From Thermoplasmata archaeon (GTDB lineage: Archaea; Thermoplasmatota; Thermoplasmata; Lutacidiplasmatales; UBA184): 64,000 nt of DNA. The position numbers were made by a program, and so were the translations under genes. The DNA lies in NCBI GenBank assembly GCA_022750055.1, contig JAKIWL010000002.1:209042-273041 (forward strand), in the 5' to 3' direction. The notes beneath the pieces were generated by a model that saw nothing but the letters and a program-made list of their open reading frames with translations, was not told the origin of the DNA and did no database searches. Below, one piece after another: positions 2,963-64,000 of this stretch (the stretch's first letter is position 1; each line of letters starts with the position of its first letter).

Positions 2963-4143
2963 CCGAGCGGCGTGAGGTGGCACTCGTCGGCGGTGCGACC
3001 ACGCGCTGGGGGGTCCGCGAGGCGACGTGGAGCGAGCTCGCCCAGGAGGTCGGCGGGGCGCTCTTCCGAGCGATGCCCGAGCTCAAGGCGGGCGACGTCG
3101 ACTCGCTGTTCCTCGGGGCGGCCGAACCGGAGCGATTCGCATTTCAGTCCCACGTGGCCCCGCTCTGCGCGGAGCAGATGGGGCTCACGCCGCACCGCAT
3201 CATCCAGCGGACCGAGCTCGCGTGTGCTTCGGGCCAGTCCGCGATCCGATCTGCGTATGCGGCGATCGCATCGGGGCTCTCCGATATCGCGGTCGCGGTC
3301 GGTGTAGAGAAGATGAATCTCCCCTCGATGGCCGAGGCGAACAGCGCAATGGCCTGCGTCATGGACCGTGCGTGGGACGGGGCCCACGGGGCGACGGCCC
3401 CTCCGTTCTTCGCGATGGTGGCCCAACGGCACATGCTCGAGCACGGGACCACCGAGGACGCCCTCGCGGCCGTGTCGGAGAAGAACCACCGGTTCGCGAA
3501 TGCCAATCCCAGCGCTCAGTTCTACACCAAGACGTTCGACCGCGCCAAGATCCAGCGTCTGCCCTTGGTCGCGCCCCCTCTGCGGCTCGGGGACTGTTCT
3601 TCGATGACCGACGGTGCGGCCGCGGTGGTGCTCGTTTCGAACGCCCTCGCTCGTCGGTATACCGATACGCCGGTGCTGCTCCGCGGGAGCGGCCAGTATT
3701 CGGACTTTCACAACCTCGCCCATGCCGGCTCGTTGACGGATTGGGTCGGACTCAAGCACGCGGCCCGACAAGCCTACGAAATGGCCGGCGTGGGACCCAA
3801 GGACATCGACTTTGCCGAGGTCCACGATTGCTTCACGATCTCAGAGATCGTCGAGTACGAGTCCCTCGGATTCTGCGGGCCGGGCGAAGGCGGACGGTAC
3901 GTGCTCGAGGGTCGATCCGACCTTGGAGGGGAGGTGGTGGTCAATCCTCGGGGGGGGCTGTTGGGATGCGGCCATCCGCTCGGCGCGACGGGGATCGGCC
4001 AAGCGGTCGAGGTGTTCGAGCAGTTCTCCGGGCGCAGCCCGGCCAGCCGTCGGGTACCGGATCCGCGGTGGGCGCTCGTGCACAACCTGAGCGGTAGCGC
4101 GAACGTCCATTCGGTCATGATCTACGAGGGGGCGGCAGCATGA
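2959..4143 (+). CDS. Archaeal thiolase (acetyl-CoA acetyltransferase family)
   Basis: RTELACASGQSAIRSAYAAIASG active-site Cys region; FAEVHDCFTISEI; NPRGGLLGCGHPLGATGIGQ. Confidence 0.92.
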   Translation: MTERREVALVGGATTRWGVREATWSELAQEVGGALFRAMPELKAGDVDSLFLGAAEPERFAFQSHVAPLCAEQMGLTPHRIIQRTELACASGQSAIRSAYAAIASGLSDIAVAVGVEKMNLPSMAEANSAMACVMDRAWDGAHGATAPPFFAMVAQRHMLEHGTTEDALAAVSEKNHRFANANPSAQFYTKTFDRAKIQRLPLVAPPLRLGDCSSMTDGAAAVVLVSNALARRYTDTPVLLRGSGQYSDFHNLAHAGSLTDWVGLKHAARQAYEMAGVGPKDIDFAEVHDCFTISEIVEYESLGFCGPGEGGRYVLEGRSDLGGEVVVNPRGGLLGCGHPLGATGIGQAVEVFEQFSGRSPASRRVPDPRWALVHNLSGSANVHSVMIYEGAAA

Positions 4144-4898: not shown

Positions 4899-7800
4899 AT
4901 GGAATCGAGATCGGACGGCTGGTGGAGCCGGCACGGTTGGACAGTCCTCGTCCTCGCGGCCGCCTTTTCCATCACGTTCCTCATCCGGACCCTTTGGAAC
5001 CTGCCGCTCTTCGAGCAGTACGGGACCACGTACTACTTCGCGGGCGGGTCCGACTCCTTCTACCACTGGCGCGTCAGCGACTACATCCTCCTGAATCATG
5101 CGAACCTGGTCCACGACCCGCTGCTGAAGTACCCGGCCGGGGCGATCAACCCGCGCGAGCCGCTGTTCGACTGGATGAACGCCGTCTTCGGCCTGCTGTT
5201 CGCTCCGCTGTTCGGCGGGAGCGCCATGTCGGCGGGGATGTTCTCCCTGGAGGTAGCGCCCCCGCTTTGGGCGGCGCTCAGCGTCGTGCCGATCTACCTC
5301 GTAGGCAAGGAGGTGAGCTCCCGACGGATGGGCCTGATCGCCGCGCTGATCTGGCCTTTCCTCGTGGCGAACATCGATTCCTCGACCTTCGGGTATGCGA
5401 ACTACCTGTCGTTCTACACGTTCTTCATCCTGGTCATGATCTACTCGTACCTCCGGACGATCCGGGCGGCCGGGACCCGGCGTTGGGTGACGAGCTACCG
5501 CCACCCCCGCGACATCCTCCGCGGCCTCCGTGACTTCCTGTACTACGAGAAGGCAGCGGTGAAGTGGGCCGTGTTCACCGGCGTGTCGTTCTCCGCGGTC
5601 GTCCTCACCTGGCAGGGATACACCTTCCTCGTCGCCCTCGTCATCGTGTTCGTCATCGTGCAGATGGTCGTCGAGCGGGTGCGTCGGATCGATTCCCTCG
5701 GGCTCTACCTCACGACCTGGATCGTCGGTCTGGTCGGCTTTCCGATCTCGTTTCCGTACTACTTCGCCCAGGGCGACTACCACATCTGGTTCCTCGAACC
5801 GGTCCTGATCTACTTTGGCGCGCTGCTGATCCTGCTTCCCTTCCTCCTGCTCCGCGACCAACCCTGGGTGATCAGCATCCCGGTTCTCGTCCTGACCTCC
5901 GCGGGTGCGCTGGGGGCGCTCGTCGTCGCCGCGCCGGCCCAGTTCGCCGACATCCTTTCAGGTCAGGGCTACTTCGTAAAGACGCTCATCTACTCGACCG
6001 TCGCCGAGGCCCAGGCCCCTTCGATCGACTCGCTGATCGTCGGGTACGGCGTCGTCACCTTCTTCTTCGCCTTCGCCGGGGTCGGGTTTGTCGTCTTCCA
6101 GATGGTCCGGGGCCGCTTCGAGCGCCGGCACCTCTTGTTCCTCCTACTCGGCCTGATCTCGATCTACCTGCCGATCTCGGCGGCCAAATTCTTCTACATC
6201 GGTTCCGCCGCCTTCAGCCTGCTGCCGGCCGAGGCATTGACTCGGGTCCTCGACATCGGAGGGTACCCGACCCTGCGCCGCAACGTCGTCTCGCTCTCCG
6301 ACCGCAGGAGTCAGCTCTCGGCCCTCCGTCGGTCGTTCAAGGCACGCCACGTCCTGGTCTTCCTTCTCGTCCTCGCCATCATCGTGCCCAACGTGTGGTA
6401 CGGCATCGACGCCGGCATCCCGTACAACTCGAAGTCTGGCTACGATAGCCAGGTCTACAACGCCCTCCCGCCGGCACTGCGCGTGTCGCCGACCAACGCT
6501 TCGAGCTATTATTTCGGGGCCGCCGGCAGCTCCCTCGATACCCCGAGCCAGTACGACGAGGCCGGGTACGACTGGTTGGCGACGCAGGACACGAACCTTC
6601 CTGAGCCTCAGCGCCCGGCGCTCGTCAGTTGGTGGGATTATGGGTTCCAGACGATCGCCGAGGGTCACCATCCCTCCGTCGCCGACAACTTCCAAAACGG
6701 CATCGACCCCTCAGGGAACTTCCTGCTCTCCCAGAACGAGTCCGAGGCGATCGGGGTACTCGCCACGACGCTGCTTTCTGCCGAGGCCCAGGCGACGGGT
6801 CAGCCCTATCTCCCGGCGGGCCTGAACGCGGTCCTCGCGGGCGACGGGGTGAACCTCGCAGCCCTCCATCCGCTGCTCGCCAACGCCTCCGCCGACCTGC
6901 CTCTCGTCGAGGCCCATCCGGAACGCTACGTCGCCGTCAACCCCGCGACGATCACGGCGGATAACGCGATGTACGATGCGGTCAGCTACTTCCTGGCCTC
7001 GACCCTGCCCCTGAGCCGGGTCGCCCAGGTCTACAACGACATCCAGGCCTACACGGGGTGGTCGATCCGATACCCGATGGTCGACTCTCGATTGATCCCG
7101 TTCTCCGGGCAGAACACCGGCATCTTCTACGCGCCGGCCGACCTGACCGGGCGCGTGATCGGCCCCGGCGGCGAGCCGACCTCGTACTACACCGTCTCCG
7201 TCGTCGGCTCGGACGGGAACTCCTACCCGGCGGGAACGCTTCCCGCCGGCGTGACCGCGGTCACGTACAACATCAACAATACGCCGGCGTTCTACAACAC
7301 GATGATCTACCACACCTACTTCGGCTATTCTGCCCAAGAGGTCGGACAGGCCGCGGGCGTCCCGTGGCTCTCCCAATCTCAGCAGGAACAGACAGACCCG
7401 CTCCAACCCGGCTGGATGCTCCAACACTTCCAGGTGGTCTATCGGACCGCCTACGCCTGCCCCCAGCCGAACCAGACGGCCGGTTCGAGCTGCTTCCGCG
7501 CGACGAACGTCCCGACCGCCCAGCACATCCAGTCCAAGGAGAAGGGATCGTCGGACCTCTCCCTCGGCTCCTACTTCCAGGGGGGCGAGGCGATCCTACA
7601 GTACTATCCGGGCGTCCCGACCGTCGGCAATGTGGTCCTCCCGAACGGCCGGGCAGTGCCTGATGCCCGGGTCACCGCCTACGACGGGTGGGGGGTACCG
7701 CACATGACGACCTTGACGGGGTCGGACGGCGCGTATTCGCTGATCCTGCCCCCCGGCCGCGATACGATCAACGTGTCGACCGGCTCGCTCAACCTCATCA

Positions 7801-10800
7801 CCCAGGCCGGTGCCACCCACCTCGCTACGTTCAACGTCACGGTGCCCAGCGCCTACGGTCTTTCCGATAGCGCGCCGACGATGGTCCAGCCGCTCGTGAT
7901 CCAGCCCGCGACCGTGGAGGGCTTCCTGAGCTGGTCGGCATCGAACAGTTCCTCGGGCAGTCCGTCCCCTGTCGTGGGGGCCACGGTGGTCCTCTGGGGC
8001 CACAACCTGTCGCGCCTCGCCGGGATCACGGATGCCAGCGGCTCGTTCGGGCTGCGCAACGTGCCCCCCGGCATCTACAATGTCTCGATCGTCTACCGCA
8101 GTTCGAACTTCACCGAGTCAACGGCGACCGCCCTCCCCGGGAAGAACGTCAACGAGACCCTCAGCCTCTCGGAGGGGGAGGTGCGGGGCACCGTGAAGGA
8201 CTCGGCCGGCCGGGTGGCGACCGGCGTGTTGGTCACGGTGAGCGGCGCGCTCGGGGTCATCGCGACCGGCTCGACGAACTCCTCCGGACGCTACCGTATC
8301 GCTGACCTGGGTCCGGGCAACTATACGGTCGTCGCCTCGACGCAGTCCCCCCGGCAGGGCTCGCTCAGCCAGGCCCTGAACCTCGCCACCCCCGGCGCGA
8401 ACAAGACGCTCAACTTTACCATCGTGCCTGTGGGTCCGGTATCGGTCGAGGTCCTGAGGGACGGCACCCCGGTGTCCGGGACTCCGGTGCGGTTCACGCA
8501 GTGGCTACCGCCGGTCGTCTCGGTGGGACCGACGAACAACTCGACCGCCGCCCACGTCACCCAACAGAAGGCGAACTCTACCGTGGTGCTCACGAACGCC
8601 GACGGCGTGGCCGCGGAGCTGCTCCCGGCAGGGAACTACTCGGTCTACGCACTCGGGTACAACGGCTCGGGCTACTTTGCGGGATACTGGTCGGGCCCCA
8701 TCGGTCCCGGCCTGCCGGACCCGCCCCCGATCTCGGTCTATCCGGCCTCGGAACTCTTCGGATCCGTGACCGGGACGGTGAACGCCTCGGTCAGCGTGCC
8801 GATCGAGGTCGCCGCGTACAATCACCTCGGTAAGGTGGTCTGGGCGTTCGCCAATTCGAGCGGCCGCTACGCCCTCTGGCTGCCGAACGGCGAGTACTCC
8901 GTCCTTGCGTTCAGCCCCAACCCGAACCAGGCGGTCCTTGCGAAGGCCGTCGTATCGGGGACCACCCGCCTGGACCTCGTCACGACCCCGACCAGTCTCG
9001 CGACGACGGTCGTGACCGACAACGCGACGGGCCGGCCGATCCTCGGAGCTTCGGTGAACTTTACCCTCGAATCGAACGGCGCCACCGTCGCCGCTACCTC
9101 GGACTCGCACGGCAATGCCTCGGCGGTCCTGCCGAGCGTCCCGCCGCCCTCGAGCCGCGGAGCTCCCCCTGTGTACTGCATCAACGTCACCGCGACGGGC
9201 TACCTCGGAAGTTCGCGCTGCGGAGTGGCGGCCGGAACGCTGCCGACCGGATCGGCCGTCCGTCTCGTGGGCGCGCCCGTCCAGGTGACGATCCTCTTGA
9301 TGGGTCTCCCGGGCGGGGCGTCGGTCCACGTCAACCTCACCGCGACCTCGCCGGGGGCTCGCACCCTCCGCACGAACGGGAGCTCTCCCATCGCGGTCTC
9401 GATCAGCCCAGGGTCGTACTCGGTCACGGCGTGGGCTCCCGGCTCGCCGACCGGGTTCTACTTCCCGGTCGCGGCGACCTCCTTCACCGTGGCCCCCGGT
9501 GCCATCCCGTCCTCCGTGACGGTTCGATTGACCGATCAGGTCGAAAGCCACGGGACCCTGACGGTGCCGGCGGGCGCCTCGGCTCCGAGAGCCCAGGTCG
9601 AGTTCGTTTCCCCCGTGATGAACGAGACCGTCAGCTACGGTGCGCTCGTGAACGGATTCTACCTCGCGCCGGGCAGCTATGAGTTCATCGCGACCGTACC
9701 CGGCCCGCAGGCGAACCAGGGCTGGATCGCCTTTGGAACGGTCAGCTTGAGCCTGACCGGAACCCTCTCCACGGCCTTCCACCTGACCGGGGCCTCGGTC
9801 TCCTTCGAAGGGTCGGTCAACCTTCCCACGATCACCCCACTGACAGCGTCGGCCGTGGTGGCGTTCGTGAGTCCGTCGGGATTCGATTTCCCAGCGTTCG
9901 TCTCGTCGGGGTCGTACAACGCGACCCTGCCGGCGAACGTGACCTATACGCCGTTCTTGAACGTCACGGCCCCGGTCGTGCGAAACAACGTCTCGGTCGT
10001 CGAGGCCCTGAGCGTCCCGAGGGGGCAGGTGTGCGCCGTCCGGCCCGTTGGGACCTCCTGTGACATCACGCTCGTCGGACGAGAGGTCAACCTGACCCTC
10101 GACGGCCTCCTATCCGTGGCGAACTCACCGGCCCTCGTGCCGGGGTCGGTGCTGCTCGAGGGGCCAGCCCCGACGATGCTCCTGACTCGGCTCGTCACGA
10201 GTGCGAACGGCTCCTTTTCCGTCTCGCTCTCGCCGGGCGTCTACACGGTCTACGCGAACTCCACCGGCGGAACGTACGCCCAGCTATCGAGCGTCTCGCT
10301 CGTCTTCGGGAACTCCGAACCGCTGTCCTTGACCCTGAGGCCGGCCTGGACCGCCGCGTTGACCGTCCTGCCTCCCGCGGGTCAGACCGTCGGCCCGGTG
10401 CGATTGTCGATCCAGACGGCGGCCGGCGCCGACCTCGTCCTGCCGGACGTGAGCCTCGGGGCGCCCCTGTCCGTGCCGCTCCCGGTCGGGACCTACCTAG
10501 CGACCGCGAGCGCGAGTTCGAGCCCCTACGGGGTCCCGACCAACGCCACCGCGAGCATCACCTTCAATCTCTTCTCCGGGAATGTGGGCCTCTCCCTCGC
10601 CCTCACCGAGCAGATCGTTCGGGCGGTCGTCCTCTCCATCACCCTTCCGACGAACCTGACCCAATCGATTCTCCTGCCGCCCTCGGGAGGGACCGTCTCC
10701 CTCGGCTTCTCCGTCCACAACACGGGGAACATTCCGGTGAGCGTAACCGTGATCGGGAACCCCTCGACGTGGAATTTTACGATCACCCCGTCGAACTTCA

Positions 10801-11492
10801 CCCTCGGAACCGCCCCCTCGAACTCGAGTGCCAGCGGGGCGTTCTCGGTTCGCGTTCCGGCGGGAACGCCGGTGGTGCACGCGCCGATCCTGCTCATCGC
10901 TGACCTCGCCGGGACCACCCAAAAGGTCGGCCGGTCGGTCCTCCCAGCTCCGGTCTCGATCCAGCCGAGGGCGGGGATCGCCCTCGGTCGGTCGGCGAGC
11001 ATCGACCTCGCGGTCACCCCGACGAGAGTGACGATCCCGCTCTTCGCTCACAACACCGGTAACTTCGTCGAGTCGGTCCGCGTGTCGGTCGTCGACGGGG
11101 CTGCCCTCGCCCAGCAGGGATGGACGAGCCTCGTCCAATCGGCCAGCGCGGCCATCACCGGGCCGCTGTCGATCGCGGTCGCCGGGAATACTTCGGTCTC
11201 GATCGTACTGAACGCTTCCCTCGGCCACGCGATCCCTCCCGGTTCGGTCACGGTGGAGGCGAACGTCCTCAACCAGACCGGGGGGGCCGCCTCGTCGTTG
11301 CTGACCGTCACGATCCCGGTCGTCTCGATCGCGGTGAACGGTTCCTCGATCATCGTGACCGGTCCGAACCTCGGGTCGCCGTCGGCGACACCGGACTGGC
11401 TCGTCCCGCTCCTCTCGTTCGTGCCGGCGATGGCGTTCGTCGTCTTGCTCCTAGCCCAGCGATGGTACTCGACGCGGCGGTGGGTGCGGTGA
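4899..11492 (+). CDS. aglB: Giant STT3/AglB oligosaccharyltransferase with long C-terminal repeat region
   Basis: GGSDSFYHWRVSDY motif near the N-terminus, multiple TM helices, catalytic SWWDYGFQTIAEGHH (WWDYG at nt 6630-6644); from ~nt 7618 many beta-rich CarboxypepD_reg-like repeats (e.g. VVGATVVLWGHNLSRLAGITDASGSFGLRNVPPGIYNVSI) and a C-terminal TM (PDWLVPLLSFVPAMAFVVLLLAQRW). Confidence 0.93.
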   Translation: MESRSDGWWSRHGWTVLVLAAAFSITFLIRTLWNLPLFEQYGTTYYFAGGSDSFYHWRVSDYILLNHANLVHDPLLKYPAGAINPREPLFDWMNAVFGLLFAPLFGGSAMSAGMFSLEVAPPLWAALSVVPIYLVGKEVSSRRMGLIAALIWPFLVANIDSSTFGYANYLSFYTFFILVMIYSYLRTIRAAGTRRWVTSYRHPRDILRGLRDFLYYEKAAVKWAVFTGVSFSAVVLTWQGYTFLVALVIVFVIVQMVVERVRRIDSLGLYLTTWIVGLVGFPISFPYYFAQGDYHIWFLEPVLIYFGALLILLPFLLLRDQPWVISIPVLVLTSAGALGALVVAAPAQFADILSGQGYFVKTLIYSTVAEAQAPSIDSLIVGYGVVTFFFAFAGVGFVVFQMVRGRFERRHLLFLLLGLISIYLPISAAKFFYIGSAAFSLLPAEALTRVLDIGGYPTLRRNVVSLSDRRSQLSALRRSFKARHVLVFLLVLAIIVPNVWYGIDAGIPYNSKSGYDSQVYNALPPALRVSPTNASSYYFGAAGSSLDTPSQYDEAGYDWLATQDTNLPEPQRPALVSWWDYGFQTIAEGHHPSVADNFQNGIDPSGNFLLSQNESEAIGVLATTLLSAEAQATGQPYLPAGLNAVLAGDGVNLAALHPLLANASADLPLVEAHPERYVAVNPATITADNAMYDAVSYFLASTLPLSRVAQVYNDIQAYTGWSIRYPMVDSRLIPFSGQNTGIFYAPADLTGRVIGPGGEPTSYYTVSVVGSDGNSYPAGTLPAGVTAVTYNINNTPAFYNTMIYHTYFGYSAQEVGQAAGVPWLSQSQQEQTDPLQPGWMLQHFQVVYRTAYACPQPNQTAGSSCFRATNVPTAQHIQSKEKGSSDLSLGSYFQGGEAILQYYPGVPTVGNVVLPNGRAVPDARVTAYDGWGVPHMTTLTGSDGAYSLILPPGRDTINVSTGSLNLITQAGATHLATFNVTVPSAYGLSDSAPTMVQPLVIQPATVEGFLSWSASNSSSGSPSPVVGATVVLWGHNLSRLAGITDASGSFGLRNVPPGIYNVSIVYRSSNFTESTATALPGKNVNETLSLSEGEVRGTVKDSAGRVATGVLVTVSGALGVIATGSTNSSGRYRIADLGPGNYTVVASTQSPRQGSLSQALNLATPGANKTLNFTIVPVGPVSVEVLRDGTPVSGTPVRFTQWLPPVVSVGPTNNSTAAHVTQQKANSTVVLTNADGVAAELLPAGNYSVYALGYNGSGYFAGYWSGPIGPGLPDPPPISVYPASELFGSVTGTVNASVSVPIEVAAYNHLGKVVWAFANSSGRYALWLPNGEYSVLAFSPNPNQAVLAKAVVSGTTRLDLVTTPTSLATTVVTDNATGRPILGASVNFTLESNGATVAATSDSHGNASAVLPSVPPPSSRGAPPVYCINVTATGYLGSSRCGVAAGTLPTGSAVRLVGAPVQVTILLMGLPGGASVHVNLTATSPGARTLRTNGSSPIAVSISPGSYSVTAWAPGSPTGFYFPVAATSFTVAPGAIPSSVTVRLTDQVESHGTLTVPAGASAPRAQVEFVSPVMNETVSYGALVNGFYLAPGSYEFIATVPGPQANQGWIAFGTVSLSLTGTLSTAFHLTGASVSFEGSVNLPTITPLTASAVVAFVSPSGFDFPAFVSSGSYNATLPANVTYTPFLNVTAPVVRNNVSVVEALSVPRGQVCAVRPVGTSCDITLVGREVNLTLDGLLSVANSPALVPGSVLLEGPAPTMLLTRLVTSANGSFSVSLSPGVYTVYANSTGGTYAQLSSVSLVFGNSEPLSLTLRPAWTAALTVLPPAGQTVGPVRLSIQTAAGADLVLPDVSLGAPLSVPLPVGTYLATASASSSPYGVPTNATASITFNLFSGNVGLSLALTEQIVRAVVLSITLPTNLTQSILLPPSGGTVSLGFSVHNTGNIPVSVTVIGNPSTWNFTITPSNFTLGTAPSNSSASGAFSVRVPAGTPVVHAPILLIADLAGTTQKVGRSVLPAPVSIQPRAGIALGRSASIDLAVTPTRVTIPLFAHNTGNFVESVRVSVVDGAALAQQGWTSLVQSASAAITGPLSIAVAGNTSVSIVLNASLGHAIPPGSVTVEANVLNQTGGAASSLLTVTIPVVSIAVNGSSIIVTGPNLGSPSATPDWLVPLLSFVPAMAFVVLLLAQRWYSTRRWVR

Positions 11493-12316
11493 GACCCGAG
11501 CGCCCTGCCGTTCGGTTCCCGGCCTTCGCACTCGCCCTAGCGGTCGGCCTTCTCCTAGCGGGGCTGGGCGTGAGCGCGCTCGCTCCGTGGGCGCACGCGG
11601 CGAGCCCGGCCGTCACCGGCTCCATCAGCGGTCCGAGCGACGTCGGGGAATCGCTGACCGCGAACTACACGGTGCACGCGAGCGGCGGGCCCGCCGAGGC
11701 TCCGAACGGCACCACGGTCGGGTCGCTCGTCTATAACGCGACCCTGACCGGTGCCAACACCACCGGCGGCTCGATCACCCCGGCGAGCGGCGTCCTTTCG
11801 AATGGCTCGGCCAAGCTCACGTTGATCGCGCCCAAGGCGGCGGGGTCGCTGACGATCTCGGTCGTCGTCACCTCGAGCTATCAGAAGGTCAACCGGTCGA
11901 ACAACCTAAGCTACTCCGTCCATATCGTCCAACCGTTCCGGCTGAACGCAACCCTCATCCCGGCGACCGGGGTGACCATCGGCCCCCTCTCGCTGACGGT
12001 GACCCTCGACGGGACCCCGGTCGGCCGGATCCACGTTCCGGTGGTCACCTCCGGATCGACCTACCCGATCGCGTTCGCCTTCATCGACCTCACGATCTCG
12101 CCCGGGTGGCATACGTTCGCGATCTCCCTTGCCGCCGAGCACGGGCTCCTGACGTTTCCCGGCGGGGCCCAGCAGTACACGCAGTCGTTCTACGTGATTG
12201 GCCCCGCTCCGGACTACACGATCTGGTACGTCGCCGGCACGGTCGCATTCGTCGGGGCCCTCTTTATATGGTCGACCCGGGTGGCCGCGCGCCGTCGGGG
12301 CCGGGCGAAGAAGTGA
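11489..12316 (+). CDS. Secreted, C-terminally membrane-anchored Ig-like protein (GTG start)
   Basis: Signal-like [37 protein letters not shown], beta-rich domain with several NxS/T, C-terminal TM plus RRRGRAKK; 4-nt overlap with aglB. Confidence 0.75.
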
Positions 12317-62358: not shown

Positions 62359-64000
62359 CTACTGGGTCACGGCCCCGCAGAACGGACAGACGAGGTAGCC
62401 CGAGGGGATCTCCTTCCCACAGTTCGCGCACGTGATCAGGCCGGCCGCGGCCGGCGGGGCCTCCTCCACGGGCTCGGGCGGCGGTGCCGGCTTCGGGGCC
62501 ATCGGCTTCGGCGCGGCGGCGGGCGCGGTCCCCGAGGAGGGGGGTGGTCGGCGAGCCGGTGGGGCACGCGGCCGAGGAGCCTCCGGGGTGGTGCTCTCGC
62601 GAGGCGCGCCCATGCCCACCCGCGAGCCCTGAGCCTGCTGCATCTTCCACTGACCGAACGGAACGTAGGTGCTCTGACGCTTCCACCAGTCCCAGAAGGA
62701 GCCTTCGGAATAGCTGTCCCCGAGCGCCTTCCGACCCTCGGTCCGGAACCGCTCCACGAAGTCTGCGTATCCCTGGCGTTCGGGGTCGTCCTTCTCCTCC
62801 CCGGCGCGCCCGAGCAGAGTGGCGGCGCACTCCGGACAGACCGCTGAGTTCCCCGGGATGGTCGAGCCGCACCGGCTGCACCGCACGCGGTCCGATTCGA
62901 ACTCGGCGCCGCATTCGGGGCAGGCGAGGGCCGTCTCGGGGATCATGGCTCCGCACTCGCCGCACTCCACCATCTTGCCCTTCGCCTTCTGGACGGAGAT
63001 CAACAGGAACAGGCCGATGCCCGCGACGATGGCGGCCACGATAGCGAGCCAGATCCACAGCGGGAGACCGAAGAAGCTCTGGTCGTACCAGGGGGTCGTG
63101 TTCGAGCCGGGAGGCGAGGCGATCGTGAAGGGCGTGGTCGCGTTGTACCAGACCGTGCGACCCGCGTGGTAGACGCTCGCGTGGACGTTGTACGTTCCCG
63201 GCGGGAGCGCGGTCTCGATCGATACGACGGTCGGCGTGCTCCCTTGTGTGATCGACTTCCCGAGGACCAGGGCGAAGGTGGCCCCGGTGGTGGACCGGCC
63301 CGTGACGTTGAGGATCGCGCCGCCGGTCCCGTAGTAGGCGACCTGCGAGTCAAACGTGTAGGAGCTGCCCGGGACCAGCGTCCCGGTCAATCCGGTCCCA
63401 CTGAAGGAGATGTACGCGGGGACCACGTGGACCGACAGGTTCGTGGTGGCGGCCATATGGCCCGGTTGCCAGTTGAGGTCCACCGCGAAGGTGCTGTTCA
63501 GATTCGGGTCCTTGATGACGTAGGTGAGGTTGGCCAGAACGAGCCAGTTGAACTTGACCTGCACGCTCCCTCCGGGTGCGATCGACCCCAGCGACTGGAT
63601 GGGGGACGACGCGGCCGGGAAACTCGGGCTGAGCCAGAACAACGTCGCGAACACGTCCGTCGCCGTCCCGGTCCCGGTGTTGCGGACCGTGTCAAGAACG
63701 GTTACGTTCTCACCGATGGCCACCGTGTCGTTGGTGACGGGTTGGGCGTTCGAAGTAAGCGTCGGCGAGGTCCAGGAAACGATCACCCGATAGGTAGGGA
63801 ACACGACCGTCGGGGTCTGAACCGGGCCGGTCGCGTTCGGGCCACGTGGCTGCATGTGATACGGGTAGGGGGTAACCGAGGCGTAGATCCACTGAGAGAT
63901 CGCTTGGCTCCCGGGGTTCGCGGTCACGTCGACGTGGTAGGCCCCGAGGAAGTTCCCATCGGGAAGGGAGGCGGCCGACAGGTTGCCTGAGGCCAGGAGG
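62359..64000 (-). CDS. Secreted CARDB/Ig-like membrane protein with three cytosolic Zn ribbons (5'-partial at window edge)
   Basis: Frame stays open past 63927 to the window end (LLASGNLSAASLPDGNFLGAYHVDVTANPGSQ...); ectodomain, TM LPLWIWLAIVAAIVAGIGLFLLI, then CGECGAMIPETALACPECG, CSRCGSTIPGNSAVCPEC, C-terminal CANCGKEIPSGYLVCPFCG. Confidence 0.85.
   Translation of the reverse strand, partial: LLASGNLSAASLPDGNFLGAYHVDVTANPGSQAISQWIYASVTPYPYHMQPRGPNATGPVQTPTVVFPTYRVIVSWTSPTLTSNAQPVTNDTVAIGENVTVLDTVRNTGTGTATDVFATLFWLSPSFPAASSPIQSLGSIAPGGSVQVKFNWLVLANLTYVIKDPNLNSTFAVDLNWQPGHMAATTNLSVHVVPAYISFSGTGLTGTLVPGSSYTFDSQVAYYGTGGAILNVTGRSTTGATFALVLGKSITQGSTPTVVSIETALPPGTYNVHASVYHAGRTVWYNATTPFTIASPPGSNTTPWYDQSFFGLPLWIWLAIVAAIVAGIGLFLLISVQKAKGKMVECGECGAMIPETALACPECGAEFESDRVRCSRCGSTIPGNSAVCPECAATLLGRAGEEKDDPERQGYADFVERFRTEGRKALGDSYSEGSFWDWWKRQSTYVPFGQWKMQQAQGSRVGMGAPRESTTPEAPRPRAPPARRPPPSSGTAPAAAPKPMAPKPAPPPEPVEEAPPAAAGLITCANCGKEIPSGYLVCPFCGAVTQ

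Follow-up and report, generated by a model that had tools for sequence, protein, structure and literature searches.

The archaeal oligosaccharyltransferase AglB encoded in the 64,000-nucleotide stretch of Thermoplasmata DNA analyzed here (the window) is a 2197-residue protein in which an STT3-type enzyme is fused to a long Ig-like ectodomain and a C-terminal transmembrane (TM) helix. We give roughly even chances to the reading that this ectodomain is a glycosylated scaffold, anchored in the membrane at both ends and fused to an oligosaccharyltransferase (OST), which acts together with the product of the adjoining gene in a role separable from catalysis. In the mechanism we propose, a single-chain OST would double as a large surface glycoprotein. 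Judging from its family and motifs, its GT-C membrane domain and WWDYG-bearing domain would transfer lipid-linked glycans to the Asn of N-x-S/T in exported proteins. Beyond them, the chain is predicted to form about a dozen Ig-like domains before re-entering the membrane, leaving the ectodomain tethered at both ends as an arch. AglB would, in cis or in trans, N-glycosylate this ectodomain, which with a co-translated small Ig/CARDB membrane protein would form a structural surface scaffold. The scaffold role may be separable from catalysis because a methanogen family keeps ectodomain and partner without the active site.

Domain layout of the giant AglB

The reading frame at positions 4899-11492 of the forward strand runs without a stop over 2197 codons, from AglB/STT3 sequence into about 1,240 further residues. 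A GT-C multi-TM domain occupies residues ~1-510 (4899-6428, +), as indicated by hydropathy, predicted helices and Foldseek, whose top matches are to Archaeoglobus fulgidus AglB (AfAglB; 7e9s, 8e-18). Pfam STT3 matches residues 50-445 with 25.8 bits, above its cut-off of 24.5; an AglB_core-like match at residues 568-621 lies under its cut-off, and the NCBIfam model TIGR04154 scores 234 bits (2.8e-69), short of its curated cut-off of 450 bits. This is the sole STT3 match in its genome (94% complete, 1.52 Mb), where a second was searched for and none was found.

The sequon-rich extracellular extension spans residues 906-2142 (7614-11324, +) and comprises roughly a dozen Ig/prealbumin-like beta domains. 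Six stretches match CarboxypepD_reg, the best at residues 1095-1174 (8181-8420, +). AlphaFold models the extension as all-beta with a mean pLDDT of 80.5; the model of residues 1-1180 is weaker (mean 67.5, poor near the catalytic loop), and the prediction gives domain folds with low confidence in their arrangement (pTM 0.42). A C-terminal TM helix at residues 2168-2192 (11400-11474, +), indicated by hydropathy and the AlphaFold model, is followed by a basic tail. The initial annotation had described an STT3 protein continuing without a stop into a long region of CarboxypepD_reg/Ig-like repeats and a final TM helix, and the reading frame, Pfam and AlphaFold bear this out. It had placed the start of the extension at about nucleotide 7618; the extension is real, with the small correction that the catalytic domain and a conserved junction reach about residue 1000, past which sequence conservation falls.

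Catalytic motifs

Alignment with AfAglB locates the first acidic motif, GSDSFYH, with D52 (5046-5066, +), the TIXE-type motif TVAE with E370 (5997-6008, +) and WWDYG at residues 578-582 (6630-6644, +); D52 and E370 match their AfAglB counterparts. GSDSFYH and WWDYG had both been reported in the STT3 part at the outset, and both are present. Where AfAglB has the Asp of its second acidic motif, in a DHH stretch, the window AglB has Asn168 (5400-5402, +), so its catalytic competence is putative. As noted from the window and from loci L033, L042, L055 and L056, Asn is found at this position in most members of the protein's family and Asp in a few; other Thermoplasmata families carry still other residues. 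Just after residue 683, DNAMYDAV resembles, by eye, a DM-type motif and is a possible candidate for the DK/MI-type Ser/Thr pocket.

Distribution of the fusion and its operon partner

The search for STT3-extension fusions in related genomes that had been suggested with the initial annotation finds the same fusion in hundreds of genomes, single-contig ones included, throughout the class Thermoplasmata as well as in several further families of Thermoplasmatota. Nearly all complete genes in the genus, family and class of the window carry it. A chimeric assembly or mis-joined reading frames had been raised as an alternative; with the identical architecture reproduced in independent assemblies, single-contig genomes among them, we consider this possibility negligible.

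Most family members are about 2,180-2,240 residues long, and those elsewhere in the class whose enzyme is intact have 2,030-2,180; intact forms across the class seldom fall outside about 2,030-2,240, as identity drops to ~30%. Evolution is faster in the extension than in the core, and between families the extensions can be aligned over their full length (hhalign 6e-65 and 7e-44). The C-terminal TM helix is present in all complete giant ORFs measured. An expandable repeat stalk is ruled out by the nearly fixed length. Outside the class, other Thermoplasmatota families have forms of 2,300-3,200 residues, with families f36 and f42 near 3,190 (L104, L105 and L160-L165); L104 and L105 have ~340-370 extra residues ahead of the STT3 domain. 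Short AglBs of 1,023-1,426 residues occur in eleven other families of the phylum (e.g. L173-L180 and L184-L191), and no C-terminal TM helix was found in them. The giant form is thus widespread in the phylum, not universal.

Directly downstream of aglB lies a gene for a 275-residue protein (11489-12316, +) with a signal/TM segment, two Ig-like domains and a C-terminal TM helix; its GTG start overlaps the aglB stop codon (GTGA). A partner of ~275 residues occupies this place throughout the class (the catalytically dead family described below is no exception), and the junction is mostly a 4-base NTGA overlap (ATGA or GTGA). Partner profiles from different lineages match one another (5e-34, 2e-28 and 1e-14). 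With the window copy no Pfam or NCBIfam model reaches its cut-off; the relatives yield only CARDB, their second Ig-like domain being CARDB-like. The remaining neighbors of aglB in the window are not shared beyond the family. Searches next to the short AglBs found no partner, and none adjoins the ~3,190-residue forms of f36 and f42; a different gene, encoding a ~400-residue single-TM protein, follows the latter in the loci checked.

Sequons of the ectodomain

Sequons, defined as N-x-S/T where x is not P, were counted against three controls: 500 shuffles, the reversed motif and the soluble-protein genes of the window. Residues 907-2165 contain 41 sequons, compared with 14.1 +/- 3.2 after shuffling (maximum 24 among the 500 shuffles) and with 18 occurrences of the reversed motif, so that the extension is as sequon-rich as had been proposed from the letters alone. 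The soluble-protein genes hold 21 sequons where 22 are expected, and the surplus is therefore a property of exported sequence. Base composition as the source of the sequons is ruled out by these three controls. Enrichment is seen also in the window's other exported segments (13 sequons, 5.9 expected) and so is not unique to AglB. Elsewhere in the window, a 522-residue single-TM protein (62359-63927, reverse strand) has 9 sequons against 3.0 expected and is likely another exported glycoprotein.

Among 22 relatives, conservation of Asn is 0.47 within sequons and 0.35 outside them, and that of the +2 Ser/Thr is 0.67 and 0.47, respectively. Sequons fall in 196 alignment columns in at least one sequence; 11 columns are shared by at least 80% of the relatives and 75 are found in one sequence only. 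What seems to be retained is sequon density, not position.

This turnover of positions, together with the enrichment of the partner and of the other exported segments, would also suit a passive stalk whose sequons reflect nothing but a general, dense N-glycosylation of exported proteins, with no scaffold role. We regard this explanation as unlikely: near-fixed length, alignment from end to end over the class and retention without catalysis point to a selected function.

Lineages that lost the active site

One family, f8, carries mcrA in the genomes tested and is for this reason taken as methanogenic; by inference it is probably Methanomethylophilaceae. The giant protein finds a match in 45/45 of its genomes, mostly as open frames of 1,830-2,030 residues. 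Both WWDYG and TIXE, the motif of the catalytic Glu, are missing from all 21 f8 ORFs read; genus g34 of the family (L159), unlike these, has kept the catalytic motifs. A second STT3 was not found in f8 genomes, each of which has one STT3-related locus, and a partner-like gene is present at nearly all loci checked. Motif loss is seen a second time in genome G194 of family f20 (L111), which reads WNGYG. The giant homologues at L110 and L133-L152 (f8) and at L111, all in mcrA-positive genomes and none accompanied by another STT3 match, are from their motifs apparent pseudo-oligosaccharyltransferases.

Sequon enrichment fades in these lineages. The ratio of observed to shuffled sequons in the extension is 2.44 where the motifs are intact and 1.29 where they are lost (Mann-Whitney p 2e-9; the sequences are not independent), that of the partner is 2.75 and 1.25, and the ratio of observed to reversed motifs in the core ectodomain is 2.42 and 0.89. 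Because the loss of catalysis amounts to about two events (f8 and genus g40), this contrast is phylogenetically confounded. Intact members of the sister family f20 have extensions enriched merely 1.48-fold, no different from the dead ones (p=0.39), and partners enriched 3.09-fold; a strict rule that an active enzyme has a sequon-rich extension fails in this family. The idea in the initial annotation that enzyme and acceptor sites share one chain stands as far as dense acceptor-like sites are concerned, and the fading enrichment in lineages without catalytic motifs lends self-glycosylation indirect support.

Non-catalytic subunits of the eukaryotic OST complex play accessory roles, and the extension and partner could likewise be OST accessory parts that dock to the translocon or hold acceptors near the active site, their sequons a by-product of incidental exposure. 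Fusion in cis and an operonic partner would be expected of such parts; the core-proximal domains, up to about residue 1000, are conserved along with the catalytic part, and the repeat region weakly matches the profile of NOMO2, which has similar prealbumin-type repeats. This account is possible, if rather improbable, given that all 21 ORFs read from the family without catalytic motifs retain the ectodomain, that nearly all checked there retain a partner-like gene, and that active short AglBs of the same phylum have neither the extension nor the partner. Ectodomain and partner, kept in the dead family and missing from the active short AglBs, therefore track each other and not catalysis. Since ectodomain, C-terminal TM helix and partner co-occur, outlive catalysis and are dispensable to active short AglBs, a structural role is favored over an accessory one, and the stalk probably has a structural job of its own. 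A point against the scaffold reading is that OSTs are usually not abundant. The surface scaffold or stalk suggested at the outset fits the domain layout; its class-wide spread, the partner gene and its persistence without catalysis had been missed.

Comparison with known systems

A search of openly readable papers turned up no description of the fusion architecture, the operon partner or the dead lineage. If the scaffold reading is true, it puts forward a named protein as candidate for the coat of acidophilic archaea that lack a wall, and the dead lineage becomes a natural experiment in which the enzyme is separated from its ectodomain. The published view that AglB is present in all sequenced archaea but two (PMC8993221) would then also need qualifying, as AglB in the methanogen family seems to exist only in inactive form. 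In its broadest version, the scaffold reading casts giant AglB and its partner as the chief surface scaffold, and thereby the exterior protein layer, of Thermoplasmatota that have no S-layer: the enzyme would be the very coat that it glycosylates, and its scaffold role would weigh so heavily that the methanogen family retained a pseudo-oligosaccharyltransferase after abandoning N-glycosylation. We consider this version doubtful.

The window AglB shares the GT-C domain, the GxD, TIXE and WWDYG motifs and the fold with AfAglB-L (3waj, 7e9s) and the TIGR04154 subfamily of archaeal STT3 proteins. It differs from the archaeosortase A system-associated STT3 proteins that TIGR04154 describes in scoring under the cut-off, and from AfAglB-L, whose chain stops with a globular domain of 369 residues (PMC3703281), in its ~1,240 further residues and C-terminal TM helix. 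The short AglBs of other Thermoplasmatota families share the catalytic core with WWDYG, while a C-terminal TM helix and partner were not detected in them.

Among the extension's neighbors in Foldseek are pilins, adhesins and the S-layer stalk SlaB. A tandem beta-sandwich shaft is common to the extension, the Sulfolobus SlaB stalk and the Cna_B/prealbumin shafts of adhesins or pilins; the SlaB and Cna_B shafts, however, are not enzyme-fused, and whole-chain TM-scores are low, so the likeness is one of domain type only. The S-layer anchor role also proposed for the extension has no direct support, and by analogy only this beta-shaft likeness to SlaB would speak for it.

Two Thermoplasmatales studied by cryo-electron tomography, Cuniculiplasma and Oxyplasma, have no S-layer and no S-layer genes; they are covered by an unordered exterior protein layer of ~20 nm whose constituents were not identified (PMC12448462). 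With its two ends tethered, a chain of about a dozen domains of ~4 nm each could reach a height of some 20 nm, and the thickness of this layer, likely glycoprotein, would thus be compatible with a doubly tethered chain as long as the giant AglB. In S-layer-less Thermoplasmatales, molecules like the giant AglB are candidate components of the ~20 nm coat.
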